The position numbers and the translations under genes were made by a program. The notes under the pieces are model-generated. The model was given only the letters and a program-made list of their open reading frames with translations. It had not been told where the DNA came from and ran no database searches. Below, one piece after another: positions 14,012-53,604 of a DNA stretch of 64,000 bases; positions within the stretch are counted from its first letter, which is position 1, and each line of letters opens with the position of its first letter. The stretch lies in the NCBI GenBank assembly GCA_902802515.1, contig CADCMM010000010.1, positions 1 to 64,000 of the forward strand. The letters are read 5' to 3'. Source of the stretch: an uncultured Lachnospiraceae bacterium (GTDB lineage: Bacteria > Bacillota > Clostridia > Lachnospirales > Lachnospiraceae).

Positions 14012-14079
14012 ATTTAGGGAAAAACTGAATAAATCCGTGTTTTCTTAGGGAAACGCTGATTAAACCAGCGTTTCCTTAG
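14012..14079 (+). repeat. Family C short palindrome (GGAAACGCTGATT), one clear unit plus one degenerate
   Basis: The clear unit at 14045-14079 pairs GGAAACGCTG with CAGCGTTTCC around a short AT-rich loop and is bordered by TTAG. A degenerate version lies directly before it (14012-14045). The same unit recurs near 37184, 44890, 55691 and 62208. The remaining intergenic sequence to 14160 shows no gene. Confidence 0.6.
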
Positions 14080-24203: not shown

Positions 24204-24607
24204 GGGATGCTGCAAAATACAGATAAGGGGTTCCGCGCATCCATATGTATAGATTCGGAAACACATCAAGTGTTTCCGAATCGTACTCGCCTAGGCCCGC
24301 AGGGGCGTATCCGCCATCAGGCGGATTTTGGGACGACTTCCTCAGTCGTCCCATAAGGCTTGATTTCTGGAACACCCACTATGTAATGACGGCTTGTAAG
24401 GAATAATGTCTGATGAAAACAATCGTCGTGCGAGTGAACTCTTGCCAAAACCTTGCCGCCGCGAAAATGCATATGCTTCTATCGCATTTGAGCGGCGTGC
24501 AGATAGGTTTGCAGCAAGTGGAACGAGATAGACGTGTTTTTTGTACAAGCATACTGGCTGCAATCCTCTGTAAGGTAGTGGGTGTTCCAGAAATTTGCAA
24601 CAGCCCC
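24204..24607 (+). repeat. Repeat family B, copy 2: ~404-bp structured MITE-like element
   Basis: The ends are related in inverted form (GGGATGCTGCAAA and, reverse complement, GGGCTGTTGCAAA). The first ~46 bp match the uvrA-overlapping copy. Inside are perfect hairpins at 24252-24282 (13-bp arms, GATTCGGAAACAC) and 24330-24352 (9-bp arms, GGGACGACT). A long inverted repeat with 16-bp arms (TCTGGAACACCCACTA) spans about 24366-24592. Short open frames inside are not convincing genes. The rest of 24608-24726 is AT-rich and empty. Confidence 0.65.
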
Positions 24608-24726: not shown

Positions 24727-25725
24727 TTATCGGCAATTTGCCAGGAAAACACAAAGCTCCTCAAAAGAAGTTTTCGCCTTCCATGATGCAAAGGAAAATT
24801 CCTGATACTCGTCCTGATCTCCGTTCCAGTACAGATACAGCCACGGTCCGGCATCTCCGGTATCATCATGTTCTTCCCTTTGCTTAACTTTTCCCTTTCT
24901 GACACAGTCCCAAAAAGCCTCCCTCTCGTCTTCGGACAATTCCACCTGTCCGGAGATCGTGATATCCGCTTCTGTCAGCGGAAAGTGGTCTCCCTCTCTT
25001 GTTTCATGGGAAAACAACCAGGTTCCGTCTTCTGTCGAAAAATAATACCTTTGATATTCCGGCGGATTAGTGGAGGAAGCGTAGGTATAATAAAATTCCT
25101 GAATCTCATCCGCCGCTATGTCTGTTCCGACGACCAGACTGCCATCTCTGGCTATCGGACCATCCTCGGTCAAAAGTTCAAAGGGCGGCTCGCCTTTTGC
25201 CATGTAGCTTTTCAGGTAACGGTAGACATCGCGCATCAGACTCCCGCTGCCTTCCGGCTGTTCCTTGTCACTGTTGATAGAAAATTCGCTTCCATCCGCA
25301 TAGGCCACCCGCAGATACTCCGTGGGCGCATCCAGCGCATAGACTTCTGCATACGGAAGCTCCGCCCAGCCTTCCGGATCATAGCGGGAAATATATTCTT
25401 CCAAATCGCTCATTGCATGCCAGGAAGTCCGATAGGTTTCCACGCTCTGCCGCTCATCTGATACCTGCCTATCATCCGTCTCAGGATCCCCTATCCGCCA
25501 ATCGTACTTCCACTGTCTTCCCTCTTCGACCGTAAGGATATCCGCACCGCCACCCAGTGTCAGTGTCATGATAAAATGCTCATTCTCCATGCCGCCCAGG
25601 ACGGAATATTCACAAACCAGCAGATTCCCGTGCTCCGCCGAAGCTCCTTCTGCATACCAGCAGGTCACACCCAAACAGCATACTGCAGGCAAAAGCGCTG
25701 AAACAAACCGAATCCATCTTCTCAT
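24727..25725 (-). CDS. Exported protein of unknown function
   Basis: 332 residues. A signal peptide (~1-30, cleavage likely after GASA) indicates export. The mature part is acidic, rich in Asp, Glu, Tyr and Ser, with no repeats, membrane segments or family recognised. Near the middle RVAYADGSEFSINSDK and later a YYTYAS segment resemble beta-rich extracellular domains in composition only. The start at 25725 follows GAGGA. It is last gene of the apparent surface-protein operon, 18 bp after the leucine-rich repeat lipoprotein, and may act with it at the cell surface. Confidence 0.7.
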   Translation of the reverse strand: MRRWIRFVSALLPAVCCLGVTCWYAEGASAEHGNLLVCEYSVLGGMENEHFIMTLTLGGGADILTVEEGRQWKYDWRIGDPETDDRQVSDERQSVETYRTSWHAMSDLEEYISRYDPEGWAELPYAEVYALDAPTEYLRVAYADGSEFSINSDKEQPEGSGSLMRDVYRYLKSYMAKGEPPFELLTEDGPIARDGSLVVGTDIAADEIQEFYYTYASSTNPPEYQRYYFSTEDGTWLFSHETREGDHFPLTEADITISGQVELSEDEREAFWDCVRKGKVKQREEHDDTGDAGPWLYLYWNGDQDEYQEFSFASWKAKTSFEELCVFLANCR

Positions 25726-25743
25726 AGTCTATCCTCTCCGGAT

Positions 25744-28278
25744 TTATTCTTCCCGGAAACTGTAATAGTCAAAGACCGTCGTTTCCGCGAGCCCGCTTTC
25801 TTTCAGACGCCCCTCCACGTGACTGCGCTGCTCTTCGGTCAGGCAGGCTGGCAGATGGACGGTCACGTCCTCCGGCAAACCGGACAGACAATCCGGACAA
25901 AGCCCGTCTTCATCATCCACCCATCTAAGAAGTGCAGCGGTAAACCACAGATCCTTCAAATTCCCACTTCCCGAGAATGCGTTTGTTTCGATGGAATTTA
26001 TATTTCCATAAAATACGACCGTGGTCAGGTCAGAGTTTTCAAAAGCGCCTTCTTTTATCCACCACAGCGAAATCATGTCCTCTCCGCCACGGTCCGGTAT
26101 AAGGAGTTCCGTTGAATCTCCCGTATATTCCGCCAGGTAATGGTCATCTGGTATATACGCTTCCCAATACGGATCCAGAAACTGCGGCGCGGTTCCGATC
26201 CATGCAATCCGGTCCATACCGATACTTTCCAGATAGTCATCCAGCGCTCCTGACTCCTCCAGACTTGCGTCCATAGCGAGATAAACCTGAGTATAGATTT
26301 CCTGACTCTCCAGATTGTCCGGAACATCCCCGGTATCGTATACACCATCCAGATAGAGGAAATCGCAAATCATCGCCGAGTTCTCCAGTGTCACCGCCGG
26401 ATTTTTCAGGCAGACATACCCCGATGACAGGAGGATCGCCCGCTCTTTGATCATCGTGACGCTTTCCGGGACGATCAGGACATGCAGACCAGTGCTCCAG
26501 AACACATCGGACGGAAGCTCTGTGATCCCCTCCGGAAGTTCCAGGCGGCGAAGTGCAGGGGTACTTGCAAATGCGCCCGCTCCCAGTTCTGTCACGGTTG
26601 CCGGCAGTATGAGCTGCGTAAGGTTTTCGCATCCAGAAAATGCCCGCTCGCCAATCTTTGTGATCCCGCCGCCAAGCAAAATTTCCGCTGCTTTCGCGTT
26701 TGCAAAAATATAACCTTCCGACAGGTCGCTGTCCGCCCCGATCTTGATCCGGTCAAATCCGCTGTTTTGAAGACTTCCATACCCATAGGTCACGGCTCCT
26801 TCCGCCGCAAAGGATCCGGCGCCCGCATTGGAAAACGCGCTCTGTTCGATGGTTTCCACGGATGCCGGAATCTCAACATCTTTCAAGGCTGTGCAGTCTT
26901 CAAATGCAGCCGGTCCGATATAAGTCAGTGAGGACGGGAAGCTCACATTCTGCAAAGCGGTGCAGCCCTGGAACGCGTTTACATCCAGATAAGTCAGAGT
27001 ATCCGGAAGCACAACAGAGGTAATTTTTGTATTTCCGGAAAATGCTTTTTCATCGATTCCGACGATCTCCATCCCGCTGACCATGGGCGGAATCACCAGT
27101 TCCGTGCCGCTTCCGTCATATCCGATCAGTACGCCGTCATTATTCCGTATATAGCCGGTATCATCCGTACCTTTATCCGGATCAACAAATCCTGTCGGGT
27201 CGATCTCTATGGAATTCATGATGTCCGTAAAGACCTCTCCATCAGCAAATGCCCGGATTTCTTCTTCCGTAAGTCCGAAAAGAGTCAGCGTTACGCCCAG
27301 ACAGCGCTCTTCACTGAATTCCCGGAAGAGCTTCAAGGAATATGTCTTTGTCTCATCCCCGGTCTGATCCATCACGCCGAGATATTCCTTATCCCCGTAG
27401 GTCTTTGTAAAACTCTCGTCACTGATCATTTTTGCGGCCTGAGCAGGATCCGCGGGTGTCTGGCTCTGAACATAGACCGCACCGTTTAAATCCTCATCCT
27501 CGATCGAGGCCCATGGACCGGTAAAGGTTCCTTCCATCGCCTTCCAACGGGAAGGGAAGGTCACAGTAATACCGCCTACGCTGACCGTATTTCCGCTATC
27601 TCCAGGAACGATCTCAAAATGGTTCAGGACTGCAAGCACCGGATCAGAACGGTAAATATCGTAGATATTGTCGTGTTCTTCATATTCTGTACTGATCAGA
27701 TGGATCCACAGACCGTTCCATTGTCCTACCAGAGTATTCCCATAATCAACTACAATATCCACAGCCGGCACTGTGCCGCTCTCCGGGTCGATCCAGTTTT
27801 CCTTAATATTTGTGGAATAGATATGCGCGTCATATCCCTGGATCGTCGCGTCCATATCGTCTCTGTCCGGGAAAACAGTCTCGCCGTCATAGCTGTATTC
27901 ATTTTCAATATTACTTACGATCGTACTCTTTAAGCTGGCCTGGAACGGCTGGAATTCCATCTCCCAGATCCCGTCCTTATCCGTGACGACCGCCTTCTTC
28001 TCATCTGCCGAGGCTTCTGTACCCTCCGGCAGGTTCAGGTTCAGATGGAACTGCGGGTATTCCTGTTTTGTCAGTTCCAGCTCTCCGCTATCCGCCGGAA
28101 GCGGCTTCTCACGAATTAACGCATTTGGCAGAGGCATCGGCGTATTGGTCGACTCCGGTGCTTCCGTAACATCTGCAACGTCTTTCTTCGGCTCCGGTTT
28201 TTCTGATTTTCCACAGGCAGCAAGTGTCAGTGGAACGCATAACAGCAGCAGTTCGAATAACTTCTTTCCTTTTCGCAT
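25744..28278 (-). CDS. BspA-type leucine-rich-repeat lipoprotein
   Basis: 844 residues from the start at 28278, which has AGGA 7 nt upstream. The lipobox LTLAAC (Cys ~22) predicts a lipid-anchored surface protein. After a Pro/Thr-rich spacer (~25-60) comes a ~330-residue beta-rich N-terminal region without a recognised family. Then come about ten LRR_5 repeats of the BspA type (e.g. IDEKAFSGNTKITSVVLPDT, IGPAAFEDCTALKDVEIP; ~400-650), a break, and one more repeat near residue 770. Such proteins often bind host or bacterial ligands. Adjacent to a second repeat protein and a zinc-ribbon protein in one operon. Confidence 0.85.
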   Translation of the reverse strand: MRKGKKLFELLLLCVPLTLAACGKSEKPEPKKDVADVTEAPESTNTPMPLPNALIREKPLPADSGELELTKQEYPQFHLNLNLPEGTEASADEKKAVVTDKDGIWEMEFQPFQASLKSTIVSNIENEYSYDGETVFPDRDDMDATIQGYDAHIYSTNIKENWIDPESGTVPAVDIVVDYGNTLVGQWNGLWIHLISTEYEEHDNIYDIYRSDPVLAVLNHFEIVPGDSGNTVSVGGITVTFPSRWKAMEGTFTGPWASIEDEDLNGAVYVQSQTPADPAQAAKMISDESFTKTYGDKEYLGVMDQTGDETKTYSLKLFREFSEERCLGVTLTLFGLTEEEIRAFADGEVFTDIMNSIEIDPTGFVDPDKGTDDTGYIRNNDGVLIGYDGSGTELVIPPMVSGMEIVGIDEKAFSGNTKITSVVLPDTLTYLDVNAFQGCTALQNVSFPSSLTYIGPAAFEDCTALKDVEIPASVETIEQSAFSNAGAGSFAAEGAVTYGYGSLQNSGFDRIKIGADSDLSEGYIFANAKAAEILLGGGITKIGERAFSGCENLTQLILPATVTELGAGAFASTPALRRLELPEGITELPSDVFWSTGLHVLIVPESVTMIKERAILLSSGYVCLKNPAVTLENSAMICDFLYLDGVYDTGDVPDNLESQEIYTQVYLAMDASLEESGALDDYLESIGMDRIAWIGTAPQFLDPYWEAYIPDDHYLAEYTGDSTELLIPDRGGEDMISLWWIKEGAFENSDLTTVVFYGNINSIETNAFSGSGNLKDLWFTAALLRWVDDEDGLCPDCLSGLPEDVTVHLPACLTEEQRSHVEGRLKESGLAETTVFDYYSFREE

Positions 28279-28348
28279 AAGCATTTCCTTTCCTGTTGTT
28301 TCTTTCAAAGAACGGTATATTTTCGGAGCATCACCTGGCATCCTCTCC

Positions 28349-29140
28349 CTATCCGTTCACCGATCCGCCGCAGAACTCGCACCGTCCCTGTGCGTCCGGA
28401 ATCGTGGTCGCGCCGCAGAACGGGCAGGTAACGGCAGTCTTCGGCGCGTTTGCCGCCTCGATCTCATCGCGGGTCTGCTGCCGGACGTCGGTCAGGCGTT
28501 TTACGATCTCATTGCCCATCTGCTGCCAGTTCTGGAATTCCATATCTGTTTTCGCAAAGGATAATCCACTGTTACTATTCATACCGAAACGGCTGGTAGG
28601 CGGCGGGGCGATCTTGACAGAATTGTTATTCAGTTTGAATCGAATCTCATCAAAATACGGATGATTGACGTTGATCACCACATAGAAATCATATCGGTAC
28701 TCATAACGGGGCGGATTGAAACTCACTTCCTTCCCTTCGGAGTCTTTTCTTTTCAGCTCGCTGCGGTGTTCGTCCGTATCTACCCGGCAGCCGGTCACCT
28801 GGGAATACTCCAGCACATCCGGGTTTGCCTCCGCCAGATTACGGGCGGAAGTCACCATGAATTTCCGGTTATCTTCATCAAAGAGGATCTTTGTATGATC
28901 ACCGAGGGTAAGCGTTGTATGGAACTTTGATACTTCTTCCCTGTTCTTCTCACGATAGTCCAACTGCTCCCGGATCTGCGCAACCGTGCTGCTGCGTCTG
29001 TCGCTGAACCATGGCGATAATTTATTCGCACAGTTTTTACACAGATTGCCATCCTCCAGCTTTCGGTTTCCCAGAAGTCCGATATCTCCTCCGCAGATGT
29101 CACAGTTTTTCTTTTCAAATAATTTTCCGAATAAACCCAT
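28349..29140 (-). CDS. DUF4428-type zinc-ribbon protein
   Basis: 263 residues, apparently cytoplasmic (no signal peptide or membrane segment). The N-terminus carries a four-Cys finger (CDICGGDIGLLG...CKNC, ~14-38) typical of DUF4428. The C-terminus has a second ribbon (CPFCGATTIPDAQGRCEFCG, ~238-257). Between them lies a ~180-residue domain in which NPPRYEYRYDFYVVINVNHP stands out. Function is unknown; such proteins often serve as adaptors. The start follows AAAGGAG. It lies between two leucine-rich-repeat genes on the same strand. Confidence 0.8.
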   Translation of the reverse strand: MGLFGKLFEKKNCDICGGDIGLLGNRKLEDGNLCKNCANKLSPWFSDRRSSTVAQIREQLDYREKNREEVSKFHTTLTLGDHTKILFDEDNRKFMVTSARNLAEANPDVLEYSQVTGCRVDTDEHRSELKRKDSEGKEVSFNPPRYEYRYDFYVVINVNHPYFDEIRFKLNNNSVKIAPPPTSRFGMNSNSGLSFAKTDMEFQNWQQMGNEIVKRLTDVRQQTRDEIEAANAPKTAVTCPFCGATTIPDAQGRCEFCGGSVNG

Positions 29141-29169
29141 AATACCTTGTCTCCTTTCTCTTGCCCTGA

Positions 29170-30183
29170 TTAATCCGCCGTAAAGTAAAACCGTACTGCA
29201 TTCATATAATCCAGTTCATAGCCCTGCTCGCCTGGAACGAAGCGAAATTCTCCAGCTCCGTAATAATCTGCTGCGAGCGCATCGTCTTCTACGCGCCATT
29301 CCAAATCGTCTATCACTGCGCCTGCGAAAATCAGGGTTAAGCTGCCATCGGAATGGAAGGTAACGGAATATTCACCGCCTAATATGGACGGATCTATGTC
29401 ATAGCCGCTGATGGCTGCCTTCTCACAGATATATTTCACATCGGGCACGGGTTCCACGGAAACCGGCTCAGAAGCAGAAGCTTCGCCGACTTCCGGCAAA
29501 GCCGAATCCTCCTCGGATATCGCAGGCTCCCCACGCACAACCTCGGCATCCGGATTCATCTCTGCAAACAGTTCTGCAAATTCCGCCAGCTTTTCATCGC
29601 TGATCGCTGCCGGAAAAACGATCTGCTTCAACTTCTCGCAATCTTCAAACGCGTTTGCCTCAATCTGAATATCCGCACTTGGCAAAACGATCGTCTCAAC
29701 CTCTGTAACTCCGAACGCGCTTTCCCCGATAACGGCTACATTTGGCGGCAAAACAATTGTTCCCGACAGACGGGTATTATAAAAAGCGCATTCACCGATC
29801 TCCTCCAGCGATTCCGGCCAGTCAAATTCCTCGCTGAAATAGCCGTAATTGAATGCGTCTTCCGCGATGACGCGCACGCTGTCCGGACAATCGACCGTTT
29901 GCAGGGAACCCTGATAGTGAAATGCGTCCTCGTCGATGATTTCCAGTCCTTCCGGTAAAACGATGGACGTAATCTGCACATCCTCATTCACAAACGCATC
30001 ATAACCAATACGAACGACCGGCACACCGTCGATCTCATCCGGGACAACGACCTCCAGTTCCGTACCGACATATTTCAGAATACTGCCCGTCTCCGGATCA
30101 AATTCAAAGTCAGAAGCATCCGCCAGCGCTGCGGTTGGAACCAGCAGCGTCACAATCAGTCCAATCAAAGCTATTTTTTTCAT
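29170..30183 (-). CDS. Secreted BspA-type leucine-rich-repeat protein
   Basis: 337 residues from the Met at 30183 (AAAGGA upstream); a Met 8 codons earlier lacks a ribosome site. The signal peptide (~1-25, cleavage after ALA) has no lipobox, so the protein is secreted or wall-associated. Four to five LRR_5 repeats follow (e.g. IDEDAFHYQGSLQTVDCP, IGESAFGVTEVETIVLP; ~60-200), then an acidic linker rich in Glu, Ser and Pro (~215-245). The ~90-residue C-terminal domain (YDIDPSILGGEYSVTFHSDG) is not recognised. Same operon as the larger leucine-rich lipoprotein. Confidence 0.82.
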   Translation of the reverse strand: MKKIALIGLIVTLLVPTAALADASDFEFDPETGSILKYVGTELEVVVPDEIDGVPVVRIGYDAFVNEDVQITSIVLPEGLEIIDEDAFHYQGSLQTVDCPDSVRVIAEDAFNYGYFSEEFDWPESLEEIGECAFYNTRLSGTIVLPPNVAVIGESAFGVTEVETIVLPSADIQIEANAFEDCEKLKQIVFPAAISDEKLAEFAELFAEMNPDAEVVRGEPAISEEDSALPEVGEASASEPVSVEPVPDVKYICEKAAISGYDIDPSILGGEYSVTFHSDGSLTLIFAGAVIDDLEWRVEDDALAADYYGAGEFRFVPGEQGYELDYMNAVRFYFTAD

Positions 30184-30300
30184 GCTGCCGCACTTCCTTT
30201 CTATCATAGCGATTTATTAGGAGTTGGGCGGCACGGCTATATCCGCACCGCCCGAGATCCTGTTCTTAAAATACTGTTCTTTACTCTTCATAAAGAATCT

Positions 30301-33300
30301 TTATTCGTTCTCTCCGCACATATCCAGTACACGGCTTCGGATCGTCTGCGTTACAACCTCGTTCACGATCTCTGCCTTGTCCGGATACAGAACCTTCAGG
30401 AAGGTTTCACGGGCATTCAGCCAGTTGCCGAAGGATACGCGCTCTGCCGCGATCTGTGCTCTCGCCTCTGCATCGGCAGCAAGATACCGCTCATTGGTGA
30501 TGGCATCCAGTTCTACCAGCCACAACTGATTTGCGCTCTTCCATGCGTTCGCCAGCGCCTCATTGTCGGCTGCGTCATACAGCAGCGCCCCAATCGCCTC
30601 TTCTGTGATCCTGTGCCGTTCACACAGGTTTTCCCGATACTTCGCGCCGGTATCTGCAGCGGTAACATCCCGCAGGCAGGGGGCCGCAGGTGCGGCGTCC
30701 GCAAGTCCGGTATACCTGCCGGTCACATAGCTGTCGATCCGGTTTTCCGGTGCAGTATGTGCTTCATAGCAAACATCAGCGGTCTTATTCATCAACTGTT
30801 CAGATATCTTCGCCAATGCCGCTGCCGGATCGTCCGCATAGCGCTCTGCCAGTTCGTCCTGATAGCAGGTCAGCTGAAGCCAGAACAGTGTGCGCTCTTC
30901 CAGAATGAACGGCTTTTCCATATCGGTTGCCTCAGTGAACAGCTCATCGTATTCCGCGTTCAGCGCCTCCGTCCACAGCTCTATGGACTGCTGCCATGCA
31001 TCCTGTGTTTCCTCTTCGCTCTCAGCCTGTTCCAGAAGGGTACGGACAGACTCTGCAGTTTCCGCATGTTCAGCGCAGTAGATCATTTCGTATTCTGCTG
31101 TGCCGTCACCTTTCCCGGTCAACACGCGTTTACAATACTCGTTCTGTTCAGATTCTGATTGCAGGTTTGCACTACTCCATATCTGTATTGTTCCTGATGT
31201 CTGTGTTGTTCCCGGCTCTTCCGGTGTTTCCGGTGCTCCCGGTTGTCCCGGCTCTTCCGGTGTTTCCGGTGCTCCCGGTTGTCCCGGCTCTTCCGGTGTT
31301 CCCGGCTCTTCCGGTGTTCCCGGCTCTTCCGGTATATCTGGTCCTTCCGGTGTGCTGGAAGCTTTCGGTTCATCCGGTGTGTCTGATAGTTCAGGTTCGT
31401 CCGCTCCAACAGGCGCAATGGCCGGATTACTCAGGACAATATACTTTGTTCCATCCTCGCCCATTGCATGGACAGTTACGACATTATTTACCTCGCCGTT
31501 TGCCACATCCTATGCAGTGACAGTCCACGATACATCAATGCCAGACACTGAATCTCCATCCGCAAGTTCACCGACTTCCTTCAGAATACCTCCGGATACC
31601 AGCGGCTCATAGACCGTAAGATCTGTCACTTTCTGGCCCGAAAGGTTCTTCACATCGATATGGAACGCAATCTCTTCGCCTTCGACAAAATAGCTGCCGT
31701 TCGCCGGAGTGTTTGTCACACTCTTCACCACTTCCAGACCGCCGTATACCGTCTCCAGCGGTTTGACTTTGATCGTAATCTCGTCCGCAAATTCCGTACG
31801 CGGCTCGCCGGTGTAAGGATCGGTAAATTCCACCCGCGCAGCGTTCGTCATGTAACCGCGTTCCACATCTTCCAAAGTAACCGTCATGCCCCATGGCAGA
31901 TACAATTGCTGACCGGGGTCGATCTGCGCAATCCTGCCCAGATAGTAACCTGTGGTATCGCCATTCGGCAGGTCATAAATATCTACATCCAGCAACGGTA
32001 CATCCGCGTGGTTCGTAACTCCGACCAGACCTTGCGCAGTGTGATACAGCTCATAACCCGCAGGATCAATGCTGCTGGTTTCCTCGCTTTTGAATACGGA
32101 CACTTCTGCCGGAGCATGTATGGTCGGTATGTACACTTCATTGGAATAGACCGTCATATAACCGGTGCTGTTTCCGGTCGTATCATTCAGATCGATCCAA
32201 GCCACATTTACCACTTTGCCCGCGTCTACGTCCGCCTGCGTGACTGTGTAATCAAAGCCAACTGTTTCGCTCGCTCCGGAAGGCAGTGTCGGGATGGTAC
32301 CCACGATTCCGTCTCCGGACTTTTTCATATCCCGAACCTGCAGGTTGTTCAGCATTTCCTCGCTGTTGTTTGTGACCGTGATCTCATAATGGATCGTCTC
32401 TGAGAGCTGATATCCTGCCGGATTCTCTGAGGTTCCTGCATCGTACTTATAAATGCTCATCGGAGACGGCAAGGTAGAGATCGTACAGATGTTGGAAGGC
32501 GCATACCGGTTCTCATTTCCGGCAGTCCACTTCGCTGTGGCAACATTCTGTACCTTTCCGTTTGCTACATCCGCCGCAGTCACTGTATATACGAAGCTCA
32601 CCGTCTCGCTCATGCTGGGGGAGAGCTCTGCGATCGTTCCCACTGTGCCTGCCTGGCTCTTTTCATCCACCACTTCAATGTTGCGGATGGTTTCATCGGA
32701 ATTGTTTGTTACCGTAATGAGGTAGGTCACTTCATCATCTGCAGCATAGCTTCCGTTTGACTCGCCCGGATTACCGGAAGCAGTCTTTGTGACCACCAGA
32801 TCCTCTGATTTCTCTCCATCCGGCACTTTCATATCGATGGTACTTGCAAAAGCAACATCTTCATAGGACGTCACGCGCTCTGGGCTGTTTCCTACCCGAT
32901 AGGTGGCATATGCATGATTTTCCACCTCACCTGCTTCCACATCCGCGGCTGTTACCACATAGGTATACGGGAAGGAAAGATATCCATCCTCTTTATTCAG
33001 CTGCGGAAGGGTCGCTACGACCGTCTCCTCACCGCCGATCCTGTCGATCAGCAGGACGTCATAAAGTTCCTCATCCGCAATACTCTGGATACTGATCTCA
33101 TAGGTGATCTCCTCGCCCTCACCGTACAGATCCGTATGATACGGTCCCTGGACCTGTGAATGGCTGGTGATATTCTTCAGGACAAAAACACTGTCATCAA
33201 AGGTTTCTTCAGCCTCTTCTTCCGACGGAGGAGCCCAGCTGTAGGCGTCCTTCTTTACCTTGTAGGTAAAGGTAATATTCTCTGAATCATATCTGGTCTG

Positions 33301-36113
33301 CGTCATCGCGCCGCCTTCGACAGGGTTCTCTCCGACCATGCCAAACATGACCTCGATCACGCCGTCCACGCTCTCACTGGCGGAACCGGGCGTGATATTA
33401 TCGGTACTGATGGGAAGGACCGCCGTGAAGGAGTGTGTCTCTCCCGGATTCAGCAGAACCGGCTCGTCAAAGGAAGATACGATAAATGCGGCTTCCGTTT
33501 CCGGATACATCCATGCATGGAGGTTTGTTACGGTCAGAGGACGCTCCCCGGTATTTTTCACGATGCCGCTGTATTCAATATCGGCGATATGGCCGCCCTC
33601 ATCCGGGCTCCAGATCTCCTGATCCGGTGTGATCTGATGCATCGCAAGTGTCAGTCCGGGCATTGCACCGTTAAACCAAAGCATGATCAACTCATCATCG
33701 ATCAGTTCCTCACCGCCCTCCGCCGGTGTAGCCCGCAAAAGAATGGAACGATCAAAGAAACATGGTCCGGACGGATCCTGCTGTGAAGCCGTGTAGGCAT
33801 CCTGAGGCAGCACCTCCACATTCACCTTAAAAGCAAAGCCCTCCCCCGCAGGGAACAGGGTGTTATACTTCGGATCATATTCTGCAATATCTGTCGGGCA
33901 CATTCCGCTGATATCCGTCACTTTCAGATCCACCGTACCATTGTTTATGGCAACCAGCGGCAGAGAAATGATATCCCCCACATCTCCGCCCATCCCGGTG
34001 GTATCGTCGGCGATCAGCATGACTGACGGGCCTTCTACCCGATTTGCCAGAAAGATATGCGTTCCGGGCGATCCTTCTTCCCCGCTCTCTGGATCATGTA
34101 ATTTTGCACTGATGGTGCGGTACGCCCATGGTATTCCTTCCTCATAAAACAGGATTTTCCCTGTATAGGCAAACTGATACGGTACTTCCGGAGTCAACAG
34201 CTCAGACATCCACGGCTCTTTCGAGATGGATTCTATAGACTCGTCCAAAAAGATCTCGTCCAATGCGACAGGAGCGGCGCTATGGTTGATCATCGTCATC
34301 GAAACCGTGAACTCTGCATCCTCCACAAAGGGCAGCACTGCCACTTCATTCGCGAAAAGCTCGATCTCGGGCCACGGAGCCTGCGTATTGATCCCCAGAT
34401 CCGCCTGATTGGAATACAGGGTTTTTCCTCCGGCTCCGTCGCCGGATACATAAAAACTGACTACCACGTGACCGGCGGCCACATCCGCGGCGCTGATCGT
34501 GTATTCCAGATCCGAAATCGTTCTGCTCTCGCCTGCCGCGAGCTTTTCACTGCCGAACATACCCAGCCAGTAAGGATAATTCTCATCATGCTCTGACATC
34601 TGATAAAGGGTAAATTCATCGATGTCTATGCCGCTGGTATTCTCCAATACCGCCTCAAACGCTACGGTATCTCCTTCTTTAAACCATGACGCGTCGGAAA
34701 CCAGTTTCGCACTCAGGCGCAGATCCTCTTCATGCTCCAGACCGTCGATCAGGATCTTTTCCAGACCGGGCCAGCCCACGCCGTCCGGATCTTTCTTCAG
34801 ATCCTCCTGCATCCCCTTGACAGCCGCCTCGGTCTTCGGACCGAAGGAACCGTCTGCCGTCCCGCAGTCATAGCCGGCCTCATTCAGAGCATTCTGCAGA
34901 TCCCTGACACCCTCACCCCGGTCACCAAGGCGCAGAATGCCGGAAGGCTCTGTCTCCTCATGCTCCAGCTGGCCACAGACCTTACAGGTACGCTCCCGGA
35001 TACCGATGGAAAAATCCGTCAGCGGGGAAATGATCTCCCACTCGCCGAAGTCGTGCGGGATCATCGGCATTTTTTCTGATTCTTCCAACCCGCATACCTC
35101 GCAGGTATGAGTATGTTCTCCCTCGGCCGTACAGGTCGGCTCCAGCGTTACCGTCCATTCCCCGAACGTATGGGGAAGTTTTGCAATACTCTGTGTGTCC
35201 ACATAGCCGCATACCTGACAAACTCTGGTCTGTTTTCCTTCTTCGCTGCAGGTCGGTTCTTTTTCAACCGTCCATTCCCCGTAGGTGTGGGGTATCTTCT
35301 GAATTTCACGAGTCTCGGTCGTACCGCAGACCGAACAGCGGTGTTCCTCCACGCCCGTTCTGTCGCAGGCTGCCTCCCGCGTAGTTCTCCATGATCCCCA
35401 GCTGTGCGCGATCCGCGGGGTCGATCGCGTCTCTTTCGCGCCGTCGCGGGAGCAGGTGCGTGTCTCCTTACCCTCCGAGATACAGGTAGCCGCTTTCGTT
35501 ACCGACCAGCCGCCCCAGCTGTGTCCCAAAGCAGAGGTAGCACGGGTTTCTGTCTTTCCGCAGACAGAACATTTACGGCTTTCCTCACCGCCTGCCGTAC
35601 AGGACGCTGCCTTTGTCTGTTTCCAGCCGCCCCAACTATGATTGCCTGTGGCAGGTATGGACTGCGTCTCTGTCACACCGCACACGGAGCAGGTGCGCGT
35701 CTGCGTCCCCTCCGCAGCGCAGGTTGGCGCTTTGGTCTGTGTCCAGCCACCCCATGTGTGTCCGGCAGCAACAATGTTTTCTGTTTCTGTCTGCCCGCAT
35801 CGCCGCAAGTGCGTGAACGTGTTCCGTTCTCCGTACACGTGGCCTTCTTTGTTATCGCCCAGTCACTCCAACTATGCCCCAATGCAGAACCCGTCTGTTC
35901 CGTTTTCGTTGTGTCGCAATAAACGCACTGTGATGTCACGGTACCCGGTGATGTACAGGTCGGATCCGTTGCACTGATCACATTCCAGAAGTGATTCCCA
36001 CCGTTCCTGGATGAATCCTCCGCCGGACACTCGCCGGCATACGCAGTAGCAGGCAGCATCCCCGCCAGCATGACAAATGTCAGAAAAACAGCCATGAATT
36101 TTTTGACCTTCAT
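30301..36113 (-). pseudogene. Giant multi-domain surface protein, split by a frameshift and an in-frame TAG
   Basis: Three adjacent frames read as one ~1,938-residue protein. 36113-~35800: signal peptide and first Cys/His repeats. ~35838-31510: the rest of about nine GHxWGxW...C...C..CG repeats, a peptidoglycan-binding_1-like domain (LGDRGEGVRDLQNALNEAGY) and many CARDB/DUF11-like beta domains with TVTAADV motifs. 31506-30301: a (PEEPGxPGAPET)n Pro/Glu spacer and two copies of a ~130-residue helical domain with WxxxLNxxYxxL features reminiscent of LprI/DUF1311. Lesion 1: between TGC and TGCGGG near 35797 the expected six bases are five, a one-base loss. Lesion 2: TAG at 31510-31512 sits in frame where sister repeats have an alanine codon. 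As read, translation stops early; assembly error is possible for lesion 1. Confidence 0.8.
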
Positions 36114-36173
36114 ATGTTTGTCCTCCTTTATTTTTTATAACTTCCCCATGTCCGCTTTGTTCTCGGGCGGCAT

Positions 36174-36839
36174 TTATCCATCCGGTGCACCTCCGTTCAG
36201 ACGGTCTTTTTCGCTGACCACAAGCCCTAACGCCTTCGCGTTGATTGCAAGGTCGAGCCGGTTTTCAAACCCTGTCTTGTTCAGCATATTTTCGATATGC
36301 TGCCGGACGGTGTTGACGGAAATACCCAGCTTCCTGGCAATCTCTCCATTGGAAAGGCTATCTGTCATCTCCCGCAGAACCTCCATCTCCCTTTCTGTCA
36401 GGGCGGCTTTTGTCACAAGCCCGAAGTCCGGCTTCGGAGGATCGTCCGGATAAATTCTTTCGCCCGCCATCGTCCGATCCATGATCTCCAAAAGCGATGT
36501 ATCGGAGTACTCCTTGTACCAAAAGCTCTCGACGCCTGCTGCTCTGGTCCGGTCCTCCCAGCTCGATTCCGAGGTAGAGGTGGCCAGAATGATCTTGATC
36601 TGAGGATGCCGCTTCTTGATTTGTTCCGCCGCCGTCAATCCGTCGATCCCATAGCGCATCATAATATCCATAACGATCAGATTGACCTCGTGTCGGTCAC
36701 AGAAGGTTACTGCTGTCTCTGCTGTCGGCAGAGCCTTTACCAGCTCGTAATTCGTGGAGGACTTGACATACATCTCGAAAAAGCCGAGCGCCATTCGCTG
36801 GTCGTCCACAACCATAATCTTTGTTTTCTTGCTCAACAA
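36174..36839 (-). CDS. NarL/FixJ (LuxR)-family response regulator
   Basis: 221 residues. Receiver domain (~1-125): acidic pair in VVDDQ (~11), phosphoacceptor Asp in VMDIMM (~57), Thr/Ser in ILATSTSE (~87) and Lys in WYKEY (~108). C-terminal LuxR helix-turn-helix (~145-205; LTEREMEVLREMTDSLSNGE, VNTVRQHIENMLNKTGFEN). It should bind DNA when phosphorylated. The start is TTG at 36839, set by GGAGGTGA 6-7 nt upstream. No histidine kinase gene is adjacent; a degraded gene lies upstream. It is 60 bp ahead of the giant surface gene and probably controls that operon. Confidence 0.93.
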   Translation of the reverse strand: MLSKKTKIMVVDDQRMALGFFEMYVKSSTNYELVKALPTAETAVTFCDRHEVNLIVMDIMMRYGIDGLTAAEQIKKRHPQIKIILATSTSESSWEDRTRAAGVESFWYKEYSDTSLLEIMDRTMAGERIYPDDPPKPDFGLVTKAALTEREMEVLREMTDSLSNGEIARKLGISVNTVRQHIENMLNKTGFENRLDLAINAKALGLVVSEKDRLNGGAPDG

Positions 36840-36971: not shown

Positions 36972-37172
36972 TCACTTTGGACTATCTGAGCAAATTTTAT
37001 AACGACGTTCGCCAAACATTGCCGCAATCAGCGCGTTTTCCGCGTCCAGCGCTTCGTTTGCGTCCAGCAGCCGGTCTTCAGCCGTTCCGGTTTCCGTTCG
37101 TTGTACCGGATCAGGAGCAGTTCATCCAGTGACAGGGCCTGCGGTTTGCTTAATTCCACTAGCCATAAACTA
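36972..37172 (-). pseudogene. Probable degraded gene remnant
   Basis: A coding-like stretch ends at a TGA at 36972-36974 and reads in part TAEDRLLDANEALDAENALI and GERRYKICSDSPK. Upstream it continues only in another frame (SLWLVELSKPQALSLDELLL). The GC-rich third positions look like real coding DNA, and LWLVEL also occurs in the last domain of the nearby giant surface protein. It may be a decayed duplicate of that domain, or the tail of a lost partner gene of the response regulator. Without a ribosome site or intact frame it is not a working gene. Confidence 0.35.
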
Positions 37173-37183
37173 TATAGGGGTGC

Positions 37184-37213
37184 AGGAAACGCTTTATTCA
37201 GCGTTTCCCTAAA
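37184..37213 (+). repeat. Family C short palindrome, copy at 37.2 kb
   Basis: GGAAACGCTTTATTCAGCGTTTCC: GGAAACGCT pairs with AGCGTTTCC around a 6-nt loop. It abuts the terminator of the NUDIX gene. Confidence 0.65.
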
Positions 37214-37241
37214 AAAATAGAGATGCCCTAATAACATCTCT
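37211..37241 (-). terminator. Intrinsic terminator after the NUDIX gene
   Basis: On the minus strand AGAGATG pairs with CATCTCT around a 9-nt loop and runs into A then seven T. It lies about 75 bp past the NUDIX stop. Confidence 0.75.
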
Positions 37242-53009: not shown

Positions 53010-53285
53010 TTATGATCACATCTCCTTTGTTTACAAGCTTTTTCGGGTTTTTCTTTCGGTTTCCGCACCAATTCCGCACCAATTTTACGCAAATTGCGCT
53101 TTGATTTGCAGAACCTGCCATCTGATCCCTCTTAAACATAACTGACATTATAGCAAAAAAGCGGAAGTTTCACAATAGGATTGTTTAAATTAGAATTTTA
53201 CCTATTTTTTAGAAACAATCGGCATTGTTCGATACTTCCTGTTCTGTCTCTTGTCATCCATTTTGACTAAATATTCCGTTTTTTT

Positions 53286-53604
53286 TTTTTTTAGTTAATC
53301 TTTCAATCCGCATGGCTTCCCGGTCTTTGACGAATTTTCTTGTTTTTTACTTTTTTAGTCTATCATTCATTCCCCATTGCTTCTCAACCTTTGACGAAAT
53401 TTCTTGTTTTTTACTTTTTTAGTCTATCTTTCATTCCCCATTGTTTCTCAACCTTTGACGAAATTTCTTGTTTTTTACTTTTTTAGTCTATCTTTCATTC
53501 CCCATTGCCTCTCAACCTTTGACGAAATTTCTTGTTTTTTACTTTTTTAGTCTATCTTTCATCCCACATGGCTTCCCGGTCTTTAACTAAATATCCTATT
53601 TTTG
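53286..53604 (+). repeat. Five tandem 64-bp repeats
   Basis: The period is exactly 64 bp: ACTTTTTTAGTC begins at 53349, 53413, 53477 and 53541, and a degenerate unit precedes at ~53286. The three inner units are almost identical; the first and last share a variant (CATGGCTTCCCGGTCTTT) absent from the inner ones. Units are AT-rich, with no coding capacity and no spacers, so this is not a CRISPR. It lies in the long gap upstream of ychF. Confidence 0.9.

Follow-up and report, generated by a model that had tools for sequence, protein, structure and literature searches.

YdjH of Bacillus subtilis carries a TPM domain. Its operon, pspA-ydjGHI, is an SPFH/PspA membrane-stress operon (PMC8581546, PMC9239133). 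LiaRS control the PspA-like protein LiaH (PMC9239133). A further point of comparison is given by the BspA-type leucine-rich repeat (LRR) surface proteins HupY/LrrG. Here we compare these systems with a block of genes in a window of 64,000 nucleotides, positions 1-64000 of contig C10 in the draft genome (G000) of an uncultured Lachnospiraceae bacterium. In transcription order, the block encodes a LuxR-type regulator, a giant protein, a secreted LRR protein, a DUF4428 zinc-ribbon protein, an LRR lipoprotein and an exported protein.

The likeness to ydjGHI lies in related loci, several of which place DUF4428 among genes for Band_7_1 (SPFH), TFIIB-like zinc-ribbon and TPM proteins. The window block itself, however, has no SPFH, TFIIB-ribbon, TPM or PspA gene, and PspA gave no Pfam match among the window operon proteins. 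Moreover, B. subtilis uses sigma-W and not a two-component triad (7TM gene, histidine kinase and LuxR regulator), and LRR lipoproteins and giant surface proteins are not found in ydjGHI. LiaFSR/liaIH is similar by analogy, with a membrane protein, a kinase and a NarL/LuxR-type regulator adjoining envelope-protection genes. It differs in that the 7TM protein of complete loci matches only HisKA_7TM in Pfam, with no LiaF match, while the block has no LiaH/PspA gene and the window no sensor genes. Lastly, the two window LRR proteins have LRR_5 matches and weak matches to the HupY/LrrG model, but they fall far under its equivalog cut-off and the lipoprotein adds two Mog1/PsbP-like domains.

In our preferred reading, to which we give a probability of roughly 55%, the block represents one branch of a conserved two-component locus for envelope/surface remodelling, a branch without sensors and in partial decay. 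The block suggests how uncultured Lachnospiraceae regulate large, changeable surface proteins. The DUF4428 family is spread across Clostridia and has almost no literature; its links to a specific kinase/regulator family, to surface LRR proteins and to SPFH/TPM membrane-stress genes offer a testable function.

Gene content and layout

The block opens with a LuxR/NarL-type response regulator (36174..36839, minus strand), assigned by its Response_reg (9e-16) and GerE (1e-15) matches, its place in the tree and its residues. It has a TTG start, and the phospho-acceptor and other key receiver residues are present. After the giant gene, which is treated below, come the secreted BspA-type LRR protein (29170..30207, likely start 30183; LRR_5 2.7e-24, signal peptide), the cytoplasmic DUF4428 protein (28349..29140; DUF4428 1.3e-17), the LRR lipoprotein (25744..28341, likely start 28278; LRR_5 1.5e-46, lipobox) and the exported protein (24727..25725; no Pfam match), again all on the minus strand. 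Pfam and the open reading frames agree with the first-pass annotation on the kinds of these genes, namely LuxR regulator, secreted LRR protein, double zinc ribbon, LRR lipoprotein and exported protein. Its account of co-direction with short gaps also holds, every block gene being on the minus strand. Co-direction alone is nevertheless weak evidence, because the neighbouring genes at 19.6 to 42.5 kb share this strand.

A scan found no terminator-like sites between the block genes on the minus strand. The sole promoter-like site just 5' of the regulator, at 36969-36941 on the minus strand, has 10/12 matches and comes from a consensus scan only; promoter-like sites in the region are fewer than in shuffles. 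No RNA families were found in the window.

The DUF4428 protein has a second zinc ribbon at its C-terminus, and the eight cysteine ligands are invariant in 21 homologues. Its AlphaFold2 model (pLDDT 85) consists of an N-terminal ribbon, a beta-rich middle, a long helix and the C-terminal ribbon. The likeliest fold matches of the middle domain are bacterial PH domains (probability about 0.9, with E-values that are not significant), and we call it PH-like on this basis. A sequence comparison with the PDB gave no match for the zinc-ribbon protein.

In the lipoprotein, the two Mog1/PsbP-like domains are joined to BspA-type LRRs (model pLDDT 73, fold matches). Among 299 family genomes, its N-terminal part has a strong match only in the window genome and at the triad of G061. 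With this N-domain, a profile search of the whole class gave nothing outside the own genome but short matches, most of them at the signal peptide. The C-terminus of the small LRR protein has a weak lipocalin-like match.

The last gene is mostly missing in the close relative G334. Besides the window genome, 6 of 397 family genomes have its C-terminal domain (about residues 193-330), on exported proteins not adjoining the triad. Separately, a homologue of this domain lies beside a CxxC-repeat protein in genome G788 (L204:8015-10484), with no triad detected near; proteins of these two kinds may travel together.

The giant surface gene

The giant wall-binding protein of the first-pass annotation is not a single open gene; one frameshift and one premature stop interrupt it. 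The 5' piece (35673..36113, minus strand) holds the signal peptide and the first CxxC-type repeats; its frame runs for 146 codons and then falls out of frame, with a one-base frameshift at ~35,801. The main piece (31510..35838, minus strand; 1442 codons), which lies in another frame, contains CxxCG repeats, a PG_binding_1 domain that is genuine by Pfam, and DUF7507/DUF11 repeats. An in-frame TAG (31512-31510) ends it. Beyond this TAG, 401 further codons share the frame of the main piece and form the 3' piece (30301..31506, minus strand), whose product has proline-rich repeats and one domain that matches nothing in Pfam.

In the close relative G012, of the same genus and the record behind locus L055, the 3' piece is 99% identical and the main frame is open to its end. 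At the first point, the G012 giant is also disrupted, by an in-frame UGA, so in both genomes the wall-binding and repeat domains are severed from the signal peptide. As read from the sequence, the giant no longer gives an exported full-length protein. A selenocysteine at the G012 UGA was rejected on reasoning alone: the codon lies between the two cysteines of a CxxC repeat and replaces neither.

Most of the giant, the regulator and most of the flanking genes tested are near-identical in the window and G012 (dS about 0.01; one permease 0.08). Giant codons 200-800 and 1200-1400, on the other hand, have a dS of 0.14-0.24. Their dN/dS of 0.13-0.33 indicates that these segments had been under constraint. 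The giant is an allele mosaic, and the pattern fits surface-protein alleles that have been exchanged and that still functioned in the recent past.

A strong RNA hairpin (30225-30252; region z-score -3.2) lies in the gap that separates the giant from the small LRR gene, and is a possible processing/attenuation site. It was not called a terminator because it has no T run.

Missing sensors and related loci

The regulators of the window and G012 group with those of L057, L058 and L151 at 100/100 support. The regulators of this L057/L058/L151 clade have two sensor genes directly upstream, for a 7TM kinase-like protein and a histidine kinase. Beside the regulator, these sensors are absent from the window assembly and from G012, and no match to or remnant of a decayed kinase or 7TM gene was found upstream of the regulator or anywhere in the window. 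Nor is the regulator self-sufficient: the homologous loci have two sensor genes that are missing here. The sensors could lie elsewhere in an assembly gap, the genome being about 94% complete in 141 contigs.

Elsewhere in the window genome, the kinase occurs only on contigs C41 and C32. C41 carries a complete paralogous locus and C32 a third triad. The C41 locus encodes a protein of 559 aa whose N-terminus matches HisKA_7TM, together with a kinase (weak HATPase_c match) and a LuxR regulator; its DUF4428 zinc ribbon and that of the window are 74% identical. Judged by eye, the 559-aa protein seems to end in a kinase-like tail without the phospho-accepting histidine.

We defined a type of locus, a 7TM/histidine kinase/LuxR-regulator locus with DUF4428, from L025, L055, L057, L058, L070, L086, L092, L094, L095 and L097-L099. 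The window shares with it a regulator of the same clade and a DUF4428 protein with eight cysteine ligands, and differs in having no 7TM and kinase genes beside the regulator. In L057 and L058 (MAGs named Oscillospiraceae/Ruminococcaceae), 7TM gene and kinase come first, followed in order by regulator, zinc ribbon and LRR lipoprotein. Compared with the window, this order has two sensors more and is without the giant and the small LRR gene. Identities to the window are 63% for the regulator, 63% for the zinc ribbon and 40% over 800 aa for the lipoprotein (L057). This complete shared order identifies the trio of regulator, zinc ribbon and lipoprotein as a real conserved unit. A more distant set of the three is found at one locus in G061 (L098).

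Conservation of gene order, which the first-pass annotation had named as its own test, is thus found for the trio in L057 and L058 and not for the remaining genes. The idea of a fixed set gives way at the last gene, the giant and the small LRR protein, which stand outside the conserved unit as variable cargo. The suggestion of an undescribed system survives as a conserved unit of three genes; a variant of two-component envelope/surface regulation is the best reading of it.

The triad and zinc ribbon occur together in the Lachnospiraceae genera of G061, G079, G190, G215, G240, G298, G301 and G326, and also in L057, L058, a Bacillota MAG (L070) and Slackia (L067). Among the 299 family genomes, nearly all of different genera, a strong zinc ribbon (E below 1e-20) is present in 21 and the 7TM protein in 45, with both in 13 against about 3 expected (Fisher p 3e-7, counting genomes as independent and ignoring kinship). 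The two lie within about 10 kb in 9 of the 13 genomes having both.

In other genera the genes directly behind the triad encode very large exported proteins: LRR giants in L144, L147 and L213, SLH proteins in L151, and in L209, L212 and L220 a choline-binding, a dockerin and a SpaA/VWA protein, respectively. In L221 it heads a lipoprotein and a 1397-aa CxxC-repeat protein, with repeats 38-47% identical to those of the window giant, and L148 also has large exported proteins or lipoproteins behind the triad. By our reading, about 9 of the 25 inspected triad loci have neither cargo type, a point against control of the neighbours. As a side observation, L208, L070, L145 and L149 have, behind the triad, genes for a solute-binding lipoprotein and for a second LuxR-type protein, membrane-anchored and of ~530 aa; this recurring pair may be a further sensing layer.

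Possible function and alternative readings

In complete loci, we infer that the 7TM protein, with its degenerate kinase-like tail, and the kinase would sense an envelope signal and phosphorylate the NarL/LuxR-type regulator. Once phosphorylated, the regulator would activate the genes that follow it, for the zinc-ribbon/PH-like protein, surface lipoproteins and large wall-bound proteins. Gene neighbours suggest that the cytoplasmic zinc-ribbon/PH-like protein probably docks at the membrane with the SPFH, TFIIB-ribbon and TPM module, and docking is our best guess for its role; in the window genome this gene set is on contig C36, away from the window zinc ribbon. The surface lipoproteins and large wall-bound proteins would remodel the outer surface. 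With its neighbouring sensors gone, the window regulator would act constitutively or through cross-talk from the related kinases on C41 or C32, and the remaining conserved output would be the zinc ribbon and the LRR lipoprotein. Tentatively, and as a broader proposal that could well prove wrong, Clostridia and some Coriobacteria may possess an undescribed envelope-response system controlled by the 7TM-kinase pair and LuxR regulator, of which the window has a sensor-less form; such a system would join an inner SPFH/zinc-ribbon/TPM membrane complex to exchangeable giant and LRR surface proteins.

The varied giant surface proteins that the triad heads in other genera (SLH, dockerin, choline-binding, SpaA/VWA, LRR) would also suit a surface-colonisation cassette, in which the regulator controls adhesins (the giant and the LRR proteins) for attachment to host cells, mucus or plant fibre. 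In such a cassette the zinc ribbon would have no part in envelope stress and would be carried along as a minor passenger. The mosaic giant is in keeping with this, such mosaics being frequent in surface proteins under diversifying exchange. What has been kept with the regulator across families, however, is the zinc ribbon and lipoprotein and not the giant, and several triad loci have SPFH/TPM/ribbon genes and no adhesin, so we regard this explanation, passenger role included, as rather doubtful. We think it unlikely that there is no functional unit at all, and that genome shuffling brought regulator, zinc ribbon and surface genes together in what is mostly a decaying remnant. It is true that two related genomes have a broken giant, that G334 lacks most of the last gene and that the sensors are missing. 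In addition, zinc-ribbon identity is 74% with the C41 paralogue and 63% with L057, whereas the regulator has 63% identity with L058 and 51% with the C41 regulator; with nearest relatives in different loci, the parts of the block differ in history. Against mere shuffling stand the identical trio order in other families, the non-random co-occurrence, the intact open frames of regulator, zinc ribbon and lipoprotein, and the earlier constraint on the divergent giant segments (dN/dS above).

A role in anti-phage defence was also considered. DUF4428 and PH domains stand in for membrane anchors in some homologues of SNIPE, a phage-DNA nuclease (PMC13190303, Extended Data Fig. 10), so the zinc ribbon, with its PH-like middle domain, might place a defence effector at the membrane. 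The block has no nuclease or other effector, and PADLOC models give just weak helix-turn-helix-level or marginal matches, none of them a credible match of an effector or sensor protein. This leaves the defence reading unsupported and highly improbable, and a sensor-less branch of an envelope/surface-remodelling locus remains our preferred interpretation.

Some repeats and remnants were seen in the window outside the block. An intergenic relic 5' of the regulator (36990-37160) has two frames that resemble pieces of a lost protein (ALSLDELLLIRYNERKPERLKTG / LLDANEALDAENALIAAMFGE); it has no plasmid match and may mark the event that removed the sensors. A short motif (TTAGGGAAA..CTGAATAAA..GCGTTTCC) is in tandem at 14014-14079, with a similar single copy at about 37185-37225, upstream of the relic, and these are perhaps the ends of an interspersed element. 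The intergenic element at 24301-24592 has matching inverted ends (CTGGAACACCCACTA ... TAGTGGGTGTTCCAG), recurs many times in G012 and is also present at the end of contig C41; it resembles a small mobile or interspersed non-coding repeat. Finally, a tandem array at 53262-53575 contains about five units of 64 bp that are 89% alike.
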